A stretch of 64,000 nucleotides of DNA from Hahellaceae bacterium (GTDB taxonomy: Bacteria > Pseudomonadota > Gammaproteobacteria > Pseudomonadales > Oleiphilaceae), in the NCBI GenBank assembly GCA_016744695.1, contig JADGDV010000013.1:25223-89222 (forward strand), written 5' to 3'. Shown piece after piece: positions 54,629-61,062 of this stretch. The notes under the pieces were generated by a model, which saw only the letters and a list, made by a program, of their open reading frames with translations, did not search any database and had not been told where the DNA came from. How positions within the stretch are numbered: position 1 is the stretch's first letter; each line of letters opens with the position of its first letter. The translations under genes were made by a program, and so were the position numbers.

Positions 54629-55669
54629 ATGAACGACAACCAAAGACAGCAAAACCGCAGTAAATTCACCTTCGCCTTTGCCGCATTTGCACTTGGAATG
54701 CTGATATCAGCAACCATTATCAACGCCAACAAAGGCCCGTCAATCGATGACGCAAGCGGACTTATCAACTTTAAAGGTTCTAACTATACACTGAATGACT
54801 TACCGACCAGTGTCGCCATGCCCTATTATGAAATGGAGCATGAACACTTTGAAAAACAACGTGCCTTTCTAGGAGAAGCAGTTATTCAACTTGTTGCCGC
54901 AGAACAGGCAAAAAAAGAAAATATCAGTGAAGAAGCGGCTATGGAAAAACTATTAGCCGTTTCGCCTGCCTCTGAAGAAGAAGTAAGCACATTCTTTGAA
55001 GCAAACAAAGATCGCATCGGTAAGCCTTTTTATGAAATAAAGGCTGATATTGCTCAATACCTCACGCAACAAAAAGAGAGAGAAAAACGCCTTTCTTTAC
55101 TAGAAGAATTAGAGCTTAAAGGTGATTTCTCACTGCTAATTAAAGCGCCAGCATCGCCTACAGTGTTTATCGATACAGAAGGCTACCCAAGCACAGGCAA
55201 CCCTAAGGCAAAAATAAACATTGTTGAATTTGCAGATTATCAATGCCCTCACTGTAAAGAAGCAAGCCAACAATTACACGCCTTGCTAGAAGAATACAAA
55301 GACCAAATACAACTCACTTATATGGACTTCCCTATTAACCGCTCAGGTATCTCGCGTAAAGTGTCTGAGGGTGCGGTATGCGCTGACCAGCAAGGTAAAT
55401 TTTGGGAATATAATAACCAGGCATTTGAAGAACAAGTTCAGCTAAGTGACAACTCGCCTCACACTATCGCTAAAACACTTCAGCTTGATCTTGCGCAGTT
55501 TGACCAATGTATTGCAGACTCTGCCACCGCTAAAAAAGTAAAAGCTTCAGAACTTCAAGCAATTAACTTAGGCGTGAGAGGTACACCAGCGATCTATATT
55601 AATGGGAGAAAACTGGAAGGGCATTACCTTGACAAGGCATTGAGAAAAGCAGTGGTAGAACTGCTTTAA
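54629..55669 (+). CDS. DsbA-family thioredoxin-like protein with N-terminal SurA/peptidyl-prolyl isomerase-like helical region
   Basis: N-terminal TM; INIVEFADYQCPHCKEASQQLHALLEEYKDQIQLTYMDFPI; GVRGTPAIYINGRKLEG cis-Pro loop. Confidence 0.85.
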   Translation: MNDNQRQQNRSKFTFAFAAFALGMLISATIINANKGPSIDDASGLINFKGSNYTLNDLPTSVAMPYYEMEHEHFEKQRAFLGEAVIQLVAAEQAKKENISEEAAMEKLLAVSPASEEEVSTFFEANKDRIGKPFYEIKADIAQYLTQQKEREKRLSLLEELELKGDFSLLIKAPASPTVFIDTEGYPSTGNPKAKINIVEFADYQCPHCKEASQQLHALLEEYKDQIQLTYMDFPINRSGISRKVSEGAVCADQQGKFWEYNNQAFEEQVQLSDNSPHTIAKTLQLDLAQFDQCIADSATAKKVKASELQAINLGVRGTPAIYINGRKLEGHYLDKALRKAVVELL

Positions 55670-55709: not shown

Positions 55710-56681
55710 TTAATTAGATGTTATTAGCTCATACACGTAATCAACCATATTAGCACTCAACATATCCCTAGCTCTTTGCTCTACCTGCCCCTTATCTGTC
55801 GCTGAGACCTTAAGGGGCCAACGTTTTTTAGCAATAACCTCATCATATTTCATCAAACTAATCTCGGTTGAACCACGTAACCAATACCAACCCTGCTTTT
55901 TTTGTATTTCCTCAGTATCCATGGTCGCTTTAAGTTGATAAAAAGAGCCTTCATCAAGCGTAATTCCAAGCGCACTGACGGCACTTTCTAAACTCTGCTG
56001 TAACTGTACTGAATCAGCTACAACATTAAAATGTAAAGCAACCAAAGCCTCACGCAGTAGCGCCTCAAGCTTAGCTTGATCATAGTGGGCAGGTATACCT
56101 TTTCCACTGACTACGCCAAGGTTACGATTAAGATTACTTCGTTGATTCTCAATCTCTCTTGCTTGCTTAAGAACGGCTAATGCTGCAATGGGGTTTGGAG
56201 CTCTTTGCCCTGCATAAATCACCCGCTCTTCAATTTTCCGATCCGCACTGCGAACCCCTTCACGGAAACGTCGCTCTGCCGGCGCTTTTTCCAAAACAGC
56301 CAAAGCGAAGGATCGCCCATCATCCGACTGCCAAGTTTCCACCACTTGGGCACCTTCAAGCACATGCTTTGCTTCCGTTGAAACATACCTTGCGAGACTC
56401 TGCTTATTAGTCGTCACGCGTCCAGATTGGCCAGTTGTTATCTGTGCTTCTGAAAAATCAAGAGATTGATCTTTAATAGCTACTTCAAAGATCTTAGCCA
56501 GATTAGCCAGCGCCCTATCATTAGCTCCATTGCGACTATCGGCCTCACCAACAGCACTGAGATAACGCTTTTGGGAATAATTTTCTGCGGGCTGGTCAAG
56601 CCACGACGGCTGGCTTGAAGTTAAACTACAGGCCGCTAATAAAAGACTTAAAAGCAATGTTGTTATGATTTTTATATTCAT
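55710..56681 (-). CDS. LPP20-like lipoprotein (gene 4 of lipoprotein operon)
   Basis: Lipobox LLLAAC/S; SQPSWLDQPAENYSQKRYLSAVGEADSRNGANDRALANLAKIFEV pattern of LPP20 proteins. Confidence 0.8.
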   Translation of the reverse strand: MNIKIITTLLLSLLLAACSLTSSQPSWLDQPAENYSQKRYLSAVGEADSRNGANDRALANLAKIFEVAIKDQSLDFSEAQITTGQSGRVTTNKQSLARYVSTEAKHVLEGAQVVETWQSDDGRSFALAVLEKAPAERRFREGVRSADRKIEERVIYAGQRAPNPIAALAVLKQAREIENQRSNLNRNLGVVSGKGIPAHYDQAKLEALLREALVALHFNVVADSVQLQQSLESAVSALGITLDEGSFYQLKATMDTEEIQKKQGWYWLRGSTEISLMKYDEVIAKKRWPLKVSATDKGQVEQRARDMLSANMVDYVYELITSN

Positions 56682-56705
56682 TATTATTCAACCCTGAAAA
56701 CTCAG

Positions 56706-57989
56706 CTAAAAATATGAGTAGAATGTTCTACGACTTGCAGAAGAAATAAACAGTACTATTTTATCACCCGCGCGGGCAGTGAACTCGGTCTTTTCTGACG
56801 TTGATGTTACAAAATTGTTTACAGGTAACGGGTATTTACCCGTCGGCACTAAAAACCTGGAAACCTGAATAGTTGATGGCAACATATTCCAACTACGAAT
56901 ATCTGCAGACTCCGTTAATAATGTAGCTAAATTCATTAGCAACCCCAAACTACTATTTTGACCATTCGCCTGCTTAACCATTTCAGCTTTCGCAACCATA
57001 CGAGCCAATGTCATTGTATATATTTGTGCAAAATTATCAGCAAGATCTTCTCTTGCTAGCGCCTCTATATCTTCAAGAGTTTGAGTAATATAATGCTTTC
57101 CATCAAAGTTAACGTTTAATGGCCTTTTCACATAATCTGACTCTGGATACGTGGGCACAGCAAGAGAAACAACTTGCTCTAAAGATGGCACCCACACACT
57201 CAATGACTTTTCACGTTTACTGGTTACTATACCATCCCAGTAAATCACAATAATTTCTGCGGAGTCTGGAGGCAAGGTCGTTGCAACCATATTAAACCGC
57301 TGATTATATTTTTTATAATCAGCATCAAGCCCTAGATCTCGGCTCAAATTAAGAAGACTATATTTCAACGCGGCGGGAAGATGAATGTTGCGCACAGTCA
57401 TTATTTTTTCAGCCTTACGATAGCTGATCATTGCATCGTCTAACTCCCCCCCTAATTCATAAACCAAACCAGCAATATAATGACTACTTGCAAGCTGTCC
57501 ACTGGGGCCACTTGCGCTTGCCAACTCATCCATTACAACACTAGCCTGCAAGACCTCAACCCTTGCTGCATCAAGATCATTTTGCATCAAATAATTAATC
57601 GACATTAACTCATGCAACAATACCCGCTCACTGGCGCTACCATCGTAGCTTGTTAGTGTTTCATTAATAGTGGTAGCCCACACACTTTCACTCACACTTA
57701 CGGCCTGAAGAGCATTAAGTATTTCTTTTGCCAATTGAAGGTCCTTGTTAGCATCAGAGAAATTTCCCCTAATACTTTTCAATAAACCTACATTTAACAA
57801 ATATTGCGCACGATCACGGTCTGAGGCATCAATTTCTTGCAATGCAAGCAATGTTTTTTCAGCGCCTAAGCCTTCAAGTCCTTCCGCTAGAGAATTCACT
57901 TCCGTTTGATGCATGGCGCAAGCCTGCAAAAAAAATGGTAATAAAAAAAAGAGTACGCTCTTTAATTTTAATGGCATAAAATCAAACAA
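56706..57989 (-). CDS. COG3014-like lipoprotein with TPR-type region (gene 3 of lipoprotein operon)
   Basis: Lipobox FLQAC/A; TPR-like repeats (VGLLKSIRGNFSDANKDLQLAKEI; AGLVYELGGELDDAMISYRKAEKI); IIVIYWDGIVTSKREKSLSVWVP. Confidence 0.78.
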   Translation of the reverse strand: MFDFMPLKLKSVLFFLLPFFLQACAMHQTEVNSLAEGLEGLGAEKTLLALQEIDASDRDRAQYLLNVGLLKSIRGNFSDANKDLQLAKEILNALQAVSVSESVWATTINETLTSYDGSASERVLLHELMSINYLMQNDLDAARVEVLQASVVMDELASASGPSGQLASSHYIAGLVYELGGELDDAMISYRKAEKIMTVRNIHLPAALKYSLLNLSRDLGLDADYKKYNQRFNMVATTLPPDSAEIIVIYWDGIVTSKREKSLSVWVPSLEQVVSLAVPTYPESDYVKRPLNVNFDGKHYITQTLEDIEALAREDLADNFAQIYTMTLARMVAKAEMVKQANGQNSSLGLLMNLATLLTESADIRSWNMLPSTIQVSRFLVPTGKYPLPVNNFVTSTSEKTEFTARAGDKIVLFISSASRRTFYSYF

Positions 57990-58580
57990 CTAGTAACGAA
58001 CCTTCGCATTTTCAACCAACTTCTTGATTTTCTTCTGCCCAAGCCACACTTTGCGGTTATCGGCCATACTGATTAGTGTCAGATCAACTTGGTAGTAACG
58101 CACCTGTTCTTTGCCATCAACATCCACGATAGTATTTATCTGACCCTTCAACATAAAATCTGCGCCAACTTCTTTACCTGCTTCATTACGTGTTTTTTCA
58201 GATGAGTTAAGGTCTTGATCTTTTCTTTCTTCACGTATTTCACCACGCTCAGTACTAGACGCTACGAATTCAACCCGCCCAGAATTAATTAACGCTCTTT
58301 CCATATCAGCAACAAAGGTATTTACATTAATGTGTTCATGACTAAGGTTTCGCACAGATCCCACAATCACTGCTGGTGCATGACCTTTTTTGCTAACAAA
58401 ATTTGAAATCCAGGGACGAGAAAGAACATCTGTAATCATCTCCTCGGCCACTAACCGAGAGTCCGTATCGTTCCAGTTTCCACTGAGGTCGATAGTCTCA
58501 TTAACATCCATACGTGTAACCTGTGTGCCACACCCTGCTATTAACAAACTTGATAAAATGACTGCCAAGTAAATTCTCAT
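57990..58580 (-). CDS. LpoB-like penicillin-binding protein activator lipoprotein (gene 2 of lipoprotein operon)
   Basis: Lipobox LIAGC/G; TRMDVNETIDLSGNWNDTDSRLVAEEMI..; GADFMLKGQINTIVD; YYQVDLTLISMADNRKVWLGQKKIKK. Confidence 0.82.
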   Translation of the reverse strand: MRIYLAVILSSLLIAGCGTQVTRMDVNETIDLSGNWNDTDSRLVAEEMITDVLSRPWISNFVSKKGHAPAVIVGSVRNLSHEHINVNTFVADMERALINSGRVEFVASSTERGEIREERKDQDLNSSEKTRNEAGKEVGADFMLKGQINTIVDVDGKEQVRYYQVDLTLISMADNRKVWLGQKKIKKLVENAKVRY

Positions 58581-58582
58581 TG

Positions 58583-59128
58583 TTATTTCTTCTCCATAAA
58601 GCGATCAAAATTGGTGCTAGCGTTTTCTTTATAATACTTTTTAAAAGCATCACTCAAGGACGTTGCCGTTTTCAGCGTAGCCTCAACAGCATCTAAGTCT
58701 AGCTCTGCAAAGGCATAAATATCATTAGTATCGTCATCTTTCCAATGCCCAAGTATTCGAGCACCACTTAACGCTAACTGAGTTGTACTACGTATTTCTC
58801 GTTCAACATTAAGGTCAGCTTCGCCGCCAGAACTTGCGGTGTAATCTTTACTCACGGCGTCAATATAGGTAGACAAAACCCGAGCGACTTCAGCTCGTGC
58901 ACGATTATCAGCCGTTGATTTTTGCAAAGAGACATCTCCCATCGCCGGAGCCATACCTACACCATGTATCAAACGGCCCTCATTATTCTCAACAGCCTGA
59001 CTACCTTCGTTAACCCAATCAGGCGCACCACTGATACCCATATCACTATCAATAGTAGTCTTGCTGGAGCAAGCACCCAGCACCAGTGTAAAAAGTACTA
59101 TATATAAAAAACTCATGAACTTAGTCAT
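58583..59128 (-). CDS. LPP20 family lipoprotein (gene 1 of lipoprotein operon)
   Basis: Lipobox VLGAC/S; GAPDWVNEGSQAVENNEGRLIHGVGMAPAMGDVSLQKSTADNRARAEVARVLSTYI. Confidence 0.83.
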   Translation of the reverse strand: MTKFMSFLYIVLFTLVLGACSSKTTIDSDMGISGAPDWVNEGSQAVENNEGRLIHGVGMAPAMGDVSLQKSTADNRARAEVARVLSTYIDAVSKDYTASSGGEADLNVEREIRSTTQLALSGARILGHWKDDDTNDIYAFAELDLDAVEATLKTATSLSDAFKKYYKENASTNFDRFMEKK

Positions 59129-59319
59129 ACATCAAACTCCCCGATTAAATTACTGTTACTAAGCATACTCAATATTATTAACCTAGGCGAACAAAGTCAT
59201 AAAAATAGATTAAAGAAGTCTACAATTCGTCTCAGTCAAACTCACCCTTTACAGCCCTCTGGTTATCTTATGCATGACAGTTTATACTGTGCATCACTAA
59301 AAACTTACACCTAAATATT

Positions 59320-61062
59320 ATGTCCTATCGAGCCTATAGCAGAAGTCAGTCGTTAACACTCGAAGATAATCCTATGCCGCATAACTCCATAAAAAACAAG
59401 AAAAAACTGGCCTTTGCCAGCATTAAAAGCATGTATAGGGTATTCACTGTACCCGAGGCACCTGACTCAACGCTCAGCCAAATTGATAAAAATATTTCCA
59501 GAAACCTAGCAGGTTTCTTACAAGACCATATTGTTGCTGTCGAAAAAGATTTAACAGAGGTAGAAAAAGACTTTTCTGACTCAAAAATACCTGATAAGCC
59601 CATATTTGTTTCAGAACAAACTCAATTTCTTCTCGATAAATTGGTTGCCCAATCGGTTCACACCGCATCCCCCAGTTTTGTGGGTCATATGACCTCTGCA
59701 CTCCCTTACTTTATGCTTCCTCTATCCAAGATTATGATTGCGCTCAATCAAAACCTTGTTAAAACGGAAACATCCAAGGCGTTTACCCCTATGGAGCGCC
59801 AAGTTACAGGCATGCTGCATCGCCTTGTTTACGAGCAAGACAGTGAATTCTATAAGCACTGGATGCACAACACTCATTTTGCATTAGGCTCCATGGGCTC
59901 TGGCGGCACCATTGCCAATGTAACAGCACTCTGGACAGCCAGAAATTTAGCATTTCCAGCAGAAGGGAGCTTTAGAGGCGTTAATCAACAAGGTCTCTTT
60001 AAAGCACTTCGTTACTACGGCTATGAAGGCGCCGCTATTCTAGTTTCAAAGCGAGGTCACTACTCTCTCAGCAAAACAGCCGATATTTTGGGAATTGGCC
60101 GTGAAAACCTCATAGCCATAGAAACTGATAACGACAACCGTATTCAGTTAGACCTATTAAGAGAGCAATGCATTAAGCTGCAGCATGAGAAAATTAAAGT
60201 AATCTCAATCGTAGGCATTGCAGGCACCACTGAAACAGGAAACATAGACCCACTAGAAGAAATTGCAGAAATTGCCCGAGAATTCAAAGCACATTTCCAT
60301 GTAGATGCTGCATGGGGTGGGCCTACTCTATTTTCTCGTGAGCATAAACATCTGTTAAAAGGCATAGAGAAAGCAGACTCTGTCACACTAGATGCCCATA
60401 AACAATTATATGTCCCTATGGGGTCAGGCTTGGTTATATTCAAAGACCCAGCCAAACTAAGCGCTATTGAACATCATGCCCAGTATGTAGTACGCAAAGG
60501 TTCTAAAGACCTAGGTAGCACAACATTAGAAGGTTCTAGACCCGGCATGTCGATGCTTATTCATTCCGGCCTTAGAATTATAGGCAAAGAAGGTTATGAA
60601 ATTCTCATCGATCAGGGCATTGAAAAAGCCAGAGACTTTGCTGAATTAATTAATAACAATGATGATTTTGAATTAATCACCAAGCCCGAACTTAATATTC
60701 TAACCTACCGTTATTGCCCCCAATGGCTTCAGGACGAGCTAAGCATCGCCGAGCCAGAACACGCTGAGCGCATTAATACGCACATCAATCGAATCACCAA
60801 ATATATTCAAAAAACTCAACGAGAGCTTGGGCGAGCATTTGTTTCCAGAACATTACTAGAACCCCAGCACCACAACAACTTCCCTTGCGTTGTATTCAGA
60901 GTAGTTTTGGCAAACCCCTTAACCACGATGGACATTCTCGAAGAAATTTTGATTGAGCAGAGCAAAATAGCTGAAGATGATAAGATTTCAAGCGAAATCA
61001 ATGCATTTAAAAAGCTTTGCAAGCACTCTGAGCCTGAAAACAAGAAACAAGTAAACCAGTAG
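59320..61062 (+). CDS. panP: PLP-dependent decarboxylase, PanP-like (aspartate 1-decarboxylase)
   Basis: SPSFVGHMTSALPYFMLPLSKIMIALNQNLVKTETSKAFTPMERQVTGMLHRLVYEQ; FHVDAAWGG; SVTLDAHKQLYVPMGSG PLP-lysine. Real start may be internal Met at 59374. Confidence 0.85.
   Translation: MSYRAYSRSQSLTLEDNPMPHNSIKNKKKLAFASIKSMYRVFTVPEAPDSTLSQIDKNISRNLAGFLQDHIVAVEKDLTEVEKDFSDSKIPDKPIFVSEQTQFLLDKLVAQSVHTASPSFVGHMTSALPYFMLPLSKIMIALNQNLVKTETSKAFTPMERQVTGMLHRLVYEQDSEFYKHWMHNTHFALGSMGSGGTIANVTALWTARNLAFPAEGSFRGVNQQGLFKALRYYGYEGAAILVSKRGHYSLSKTADILGIGRENLIAIETDNDNRIQLDLLREQCIKLQHEKIKVISIVGIAGTTETGNIDPLEEIAEIAREFKAHFHVDAAWGGPTLFSREHKHLLKGIEKADSVTLDAHKQLYVPMGSGLVIFKDPAKLSAIEHHAQYVVRKGSKDLGSTTLEGSRPGMSMLIHSGLRIIGKEGYEILIDQGIEKARDFAELINNNDDFELITKPELNILTYRYCPQWLQDELSIAEPEHAERINTHINRITKYIQKTQRELGRAFVSRTLLEPQHHNNFPCVVFRVVLANPLTTMDILEEILIEQSKIAEDDKISSEINAFKKLCKHSEPENKKQVNQ

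Follow-up and report, generated by a model that had tools for sequence, protein, structure and literature searches.

A conserved outer-membrane lipoprotein operon pairs a short-tether LpoB-like protein with a COG3014-type TPR protein

Within the window, the stretch of 64,000 nucleotides of Hahellaceae DNA analyzed here, four consecutive lipoprotein genes occupy the minus strand from 55710 to 59128 in the order LPPa–LpoB–COG3014–LPPb (Table 1). According to the open reading frame listing they are separated by gaps of 2, 0 and 24 nt, and each product begins with a signal peptide and a lipobox (LGAC-S in LPPa, IAGC-G in the LpoB-like protein, LQAC-A in the COG3014 protein and LAAC-S in LPPb), with Asp at position +2 in none of them. 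On all of these points the reading frames match exactly what a preliminary description of the locus had stated. The COG3014 frame can be opened at a TTG (56706-57989, 427 aa), which makes the TTG at 57989 a possible alternative start; however, this codon gains merely four residues, and the in-frame ATG at 57977 (423 aa) is therefore the more likely one. A ribosome-binding-like GGGGAG lies 9 nt 5′ of the LPPa ATG, and a pattern scan of 59129..59319 found no consensus sigma-70 promoter. The 3′ end of the operon adjoins a convergent gene (54629-55669) for a DsbA-like thiol-disulphide protein with a CPHC motif and an N-terminal hydrophobic stretch.

Table 1. Features of the lipoprotein operon and its upstream region (positions are those of the window).
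Feature	Position	Strand	Details
LPPa, small Lpp20-like lipoprotein of the LPP20 family, 181 aa	58583..59128	-	Cys20, codon 59071-59069
Short-tether LpoB-like lipoprotein, 196 aa	57990..58580	-	Cys17; PF13036
COG3014-type TPR lipoprotein, 423 aa (from ATG)	56706..57977	-	Cys20; helices 22-230, beta/helical 239-422
LPPb, two-domain HP1454-like lipoprotein, 323 aa	55710..56681	-	Cys18; LPP20 domain 25-130 and C-terminal alpha/beta domain
Intergenic region separating the operon from the divergent gene at 59320	59129..59319	.	Read directly

The LpoB-like protein matches Pfam family PF13036 (E 5e-45, 154 bits versus a cut-off of 22.3), and a search of the window's genome returned it as the single match to that family. 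It scores below the NCBIfam LpoB equivalog TIGR02722 (97.4 bits versus a cut-off of 110.55) and is therefore not called an E. coli-type LpoB under the NCBI rule. E. coli LpoB spans the distance to PBP1b with an N-terminus that is disordered, rich in proline and up to 145 Å long (PMC4632607). Direct alignment of the two proteins places 19 residues between the lipidated Cys and the Trp aligned with E. coli W80 in the window's protein, versus 60 in E. coli, and by this alignment the window's LpoB has no long, flexible, periplasm-spanning N-terminal linker.

The two outer genes are related to LPP20. LPPb matches LPP20 (PF02169) with E 2e-14 and 54 bits, versus a cut-off of 25.9, and in its AlphaFold2 model (pLDDT 89.2) the LPP20 domain is followed by a second alpha/beta domain; among PDB folds the best match is H. 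pylori HP1454 (4kzs, E 3.6e-8), to which the sequence profile also leads (E 3e-5). LPPa, for which 28 orthologues were collected in synteny, reaches 23.3 bits against PF02169, under the curated cut-off of 25.9, and its family profile leads to H. pylori Lpp20 (5ok8, E 2e-5). Thus, of the family calls made in the preliminary description, the LpoB-like protein and LPPb were borne out directly in Pfam, whereas the kinship of LPPa emerges through the profile match to Lpp20. Both LPPa and LPPb are nearer to Lpp20 and HP1454 than to any demonstrated flagellar part.

The remaining protein, which we take to belong to the family named COG3014, scores above cut-off with none of the curated Pfam or NCBIfam models, and a literature search returned no papers naming COG3014. 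Its AlphaFold2 model (mean pLDDT 91.4, pTM 0.91) predicts a helical TPR array from residue 22 to 230 followed by a C-terminal beta-rich domain with a long helix, so that the TPR-like character suggested earlier is now matched by a confidently predicted array. Foldseek aligned this model with generic TPR proteins only among PDB entries, and direct PDB sequence searches with COG3014 and with LpoB gave nothing informative. The predicted fold would suit a scaffold role. A profile from 51 orthologues brings together the COG3014 protein in its short form (427 aa), its long form (570 aa) and both of the gene orders described below.

A search of GTDB species genomes with the COG3014 profile yielded 93 relatives, from which 80 loci were kept and re-annotated. 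The complete quartet was found in 42 of the 80, distributed among Gamma-, Beta- and other proteobacterial genomes, the triplet LpoB-COG3014-LPPb in 31, and other arrangements in 7 (five of them at contig ends), proportions that are biased towards the quartet because the query was of the quartet type. Records with re-annotated loci include Spongiibacteraceae, Marinobacter, Zooshikella, Psychromonas, Moritella and Thalassotalea, and also Thiotrichaceae, Gallionellaceae, Mariprofundaceae and MAGs named as deltaproteobacteria. Since synteny is kept in dozens of distant genomes, the four-gene arrangement is not due to chance. Indeed, the conserved unit and the poorly described system that had been proposed from the window alone prove to be a real, widespread module that reaches distant lineages and not close relatives only. 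Of 52 COG3014-bearing genomes in the window's own order, 14 have the quartet type, and the rest carry either COG3014-YcfL-LpoB, with YcfL confirmed as PF07233 for four loci, or a COG3014 gene whose product is longer, at about 570 aa, followed by LpoB and LPPb; LPPa and LPPb are thus dispensable in the lineages with the YcfL arrangement. A search of plasmid and other named records for the operon returned mainly enterobacterial records and one Aeromonas record.

Several further genes were seen around these loci. Four proteins some 420-430 aa long, each with a partial LpoB-like match, are encoded near COG3014-LpoB loci (L049:4687-5958, L297:1343-2605, L298:1182-2441 and L300:5963-7258), the first of which also matches CsgG and FlgT_M in Pfam; they are a possible further partner of the YcfL-type operon. 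Three quartet genomes encode a second short-tether LpoB with COG3014 not adjacent (L223:107-745, L224:4606-5277, L225:4541-5137). In several Thiotrichaceae-like genomes clpS-clpA stands 3′ of the triplet (L134:10022-12706, L151:9538-12141), an assignment confirmed in part by Pfam for two loci.

The core of the module is the pair LpoB and COG3014, which are near-obligate partners. Among 229 gammaproteobacterial genomes, 48 had a strong LpoB, 47 had COG3014 and 45 had both; that is, COG3014 was present in 45 of 48 LpoB genomes versus 2 of 181 others, and the two genes lay within 2 kb of one another in 42 of 44 same-contig cases. Similarly, COG3014 accompanied LpoB in 59 of 59 strong-LpoB genomes of the window's order and in every genome of the Psychromonas order with LpoB at E <= 1e-40. 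The Fisher p values for this pairing (1e-41 and 4e-12) are descriptive only, as they ignore shared ancestry. Seven of these 59 genomes had seemed to lack COG3014 in a single-sequence search but proved to be no exceptions, the profile having found COG3014 within the few kb fetched.

Within the Psychromonas order the presence of COG3014 coincides with the length of the LpoB tether. All 36 COG3014-linked loci have a tether of 23-25 residues, counted from the Cys to the reference alignment column, whereas all 13 loci without COG3014 have a linker of 37-116 residues that is usually proline-rich. The split, 13 linker versus 36 short loci, is perfect, but it represents one or two evolutionary events and not 49, because the linker LpoBs fall into one long-branched group and a second small group in the tree; an independent-contrast test of linker against COG3014 accordingly had only 1-2 pairs and nil statistical power. 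Two genomes, G423 and G443, have LpoBs of both kinds, one with a linker and the other short-tethered and COG3014-linked, each at its own locus (L289/L271 and L290/L270). The two LpoB types also share a genomic slot, which reads hinT-ycfL-lpoB-thiK-nagZ in E. coli, hinT-COG3014-(132-aa lipoprotein, presumed YcfL)-lpoB in Aeromonas, hinT-COG3014-ycfL-lpoB-thiK in L293 (likely Vibrio) and hinT-lpoB-COG3014-LPPb in Psychromonas. Because both types occupy one locus, it is plausible that COG3014 was lost while LpoB gained its linker; alternatively, one LpoB may have been replaced by another at the hinT–thiK–nagZ site.

A candidate target of LpoB is present in the window's genome, namely a PBP1b containing a UB2H domain (G000:C67:165028-165279, E 6.7e-20). 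This is weak evidence, because most genomes without LpoB also have a UB2H PBP1b: although the order sample has one in each of its 14 quartet genomes, UB2H is not associated with LpoB (50 of 59 LpoB genomes versus 72 of 87 without it, p 0.82), and nine LpoB genomes are without UB2H. Many weak UB2H matches fell in reading frames some 1150-1190 aa long and were left out of account as belonging to a different protein. In the window's genome the PBP1b gene is immediately followed by a gene (L171:4634-5140, on the same contig) for a lipoprotein with a disordered linker and TPRs, which we take to be LpoP-like, and a gene of this kind also lies beside PBP1b in at least four other quartet genomes; the stretches fetched from two further genomes ended before this position. 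PBP1b may therefore already be served by an activator of its own, and the quartet could be a second regulator or act elsewhere than on PBP1b. The activation of PBP1b by E. coli LpoB, cited in the preliminary description, is consequently unsafe to transfer directly to the window's protein, given both its short tether and this LpoP-like neighbor.

We tentatively propose that the products of the operon form a complex at the outer membrane, with COG3014 positioning the short-tether LpoB towards a peptidoglycan enzyme, most likely PBP1b. COG3014 and LpoB would bind one another as the core of this complex, and COG3014 would stand off the outer membrane, keeping the LpoB effector domain at a set distance from which it could act on the enzyme below, most likely the UB2H synthase PBP1b. 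LPPa and LPPb would be accessory outer-membrane partners that replace YcfL, and in enterobacteria, where COG3014 would have been lost, the long proline-rich linker of LpoB would do the reaching alone. The near-obligate pairing, the adjacency, the tether split and the shared slot all argue for a COG3014–LpoB complex, and an arm formed by COG3014 has a precedent in LpoA, a rigid TPR-bearing outer-membrane activator. The choice of target is supported by V. cholerae, where lpoB, like mrcB, is synthetically lethal with mrcA/lpoA (PMC4063736) and is described as sharing an operon with ycfL (PMC6883915). Six genomes positive for ToxS, our marker for Vibrionaceae, each have a single LpoB that is short-tethered and COG3014-linked, and V. 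cholerae itself probably has an LpoB of this type. In the window's organism, too, we infer PBP1b to be the likeliest target, with a confidence that is moderate because of the LpoP-like gene beside PBP1b and the lack of association between UB2H and LpoB; these two points, together with the genomes bearing both LpoB types and the one or two events behind the tether split, count against the proposal as a whole.

The same two points lend weight to a different, only slightly less likely reading, in which the complex serves not PBP1b but another envelope task, for instance the control of peptidoglycan hydrolases, outer-membrane attachment or vesiculation, with LpoB being a TolB-N/LpoB-fold domain recruited to another partner. 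Here evidence from Helicobacter and Campylobacter is pertinent: H. pylori HP1457 is a reported LpoB homologue, the TPR lipoprotein HP0018 is linked to HP1457 in other Helicobacter, and deletion of HP0018, which co-precipitates AmiA and MltD, causes hypervesiculation and less helical cells (PMC11394524). Similarly, the C. jejuni genes cj0089-cj0091 encode a TPR lipoprotein, a small lipoprotein and an HP1457 homologue; Cj0089, homologous to HP0018, and Cj0091, homologous to LpoB, are thus encoded in one operon (PMC3100323). However, HP0018 and Cj0089 are only putative members of COG3014, and the V. cholerae genetics place LpoB in the PBP1B pathway.

Far less room is left for the idea that four independent lipoproteins share an operon for coordinated expression without forming a complex. 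The dispensability of LPPa and LPPb in other lineages would fit such an improbable arrangement, but the COG3014-LpoB pair has persisted in lineages far apart, with two gene orders and several third partners among them. That the four are FlgP/FlgT-like disk lipoproteins with an accessory function in flagella or motility appears very improbable, even though the LPP20-family similarity is real, FlgP and FapH are interaction partners of H. pylori Lpp20 and HP1454 in two-hybrid and co-IP experiments (PMC11756786), and FlgH is present in the window's genome. LpoB was not associated with FlgH among 146 genomes (p 0.85), a FlgH match was absent from 5 of the 14 quartet genomes, two of which are 98-99% complete, and deletion of hp1456 leaves flagellation and motility in H. 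pylori unchanged (PMC11756786). Among the neighbors that were annotated beside the fetched loci, no flagellar genes were recognized. A purely flagellar role was therefore disfavored, given the missing co-occurrence with FlgH and the quartets in genomes without a FlgH match.

The current model of cell-wall synthase activation by outer-membrane lipoproteins is built on E. coli LpoB with its long linker. If a short-tether LpoB with COG3014 is instead the usual state, the unstudied COG3014 protein would make up one half of a cell-wall regulator of wide occurrence, and the linker of E. coli would be a special solution. The strongest form of our proposal, which we regard as rather doubtful, is that in most LpoB bacteria the short-tethered activator cannot reach the inner membrane alone, that COG3014 (with LPP20-type proteins or YcfL) is the missing half of the PBP1b activator, and that the E. 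coli linker is a derived exception.

Among known systems the module is a variant of the LpoB kind and not a separate category; the points likely to be unexpected to specialists are the COG3014-LpoB pairing and the linker trade-off. E. coli LpoB (YcfM) shares with it the PF13036 domain, the outer-membrane lipoprotein form and, in relatives, the same genomic slot, but its sequence is very distant (blastp E 0.008 at about 20% identity), some 60 residues separate its Cys from the globular domain, and its neighbor is YcfL and not COG3014 or LPP20 proteins. The COG3014-YcfL(DUF1425)-LpoB operons of Vibrionaceae-like genomes, Aeromonas and many Pseudomonadales have the same core of COG3014 and short-tether LpoB, although COG3014 comes first, YcfL (PF07233) replaces LPPa and LPPb, and the LpoBs lie on another branch of the tree. 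LpoP, the Pseudomonas-type activator of PBP1b, has its candidate counterpart in the gene that immediately follows PBP1b in the window's genome, at a locus separate from the quartet and with TPRs and a linker. LpoA, an outer-membrane activator with a rigid, elongated TPR part (PMC4632607), resembles COG3014 by analogy only. Finally, among solved structures those of Lpp20 and HP1454, from the H. pylori hp1454-hp1457 cluster, come closest to LPPa and LPPb, and Helicobacter and Campylobacter combine proteins called LpoB homologues (HP1457, Cj0091) with TPR lipoproteins that may be related to COG3014 (HP0018, Cj0089), the H. pylori TPR gene differing in that it stands apart from the hp1454-hp1457 cluster.
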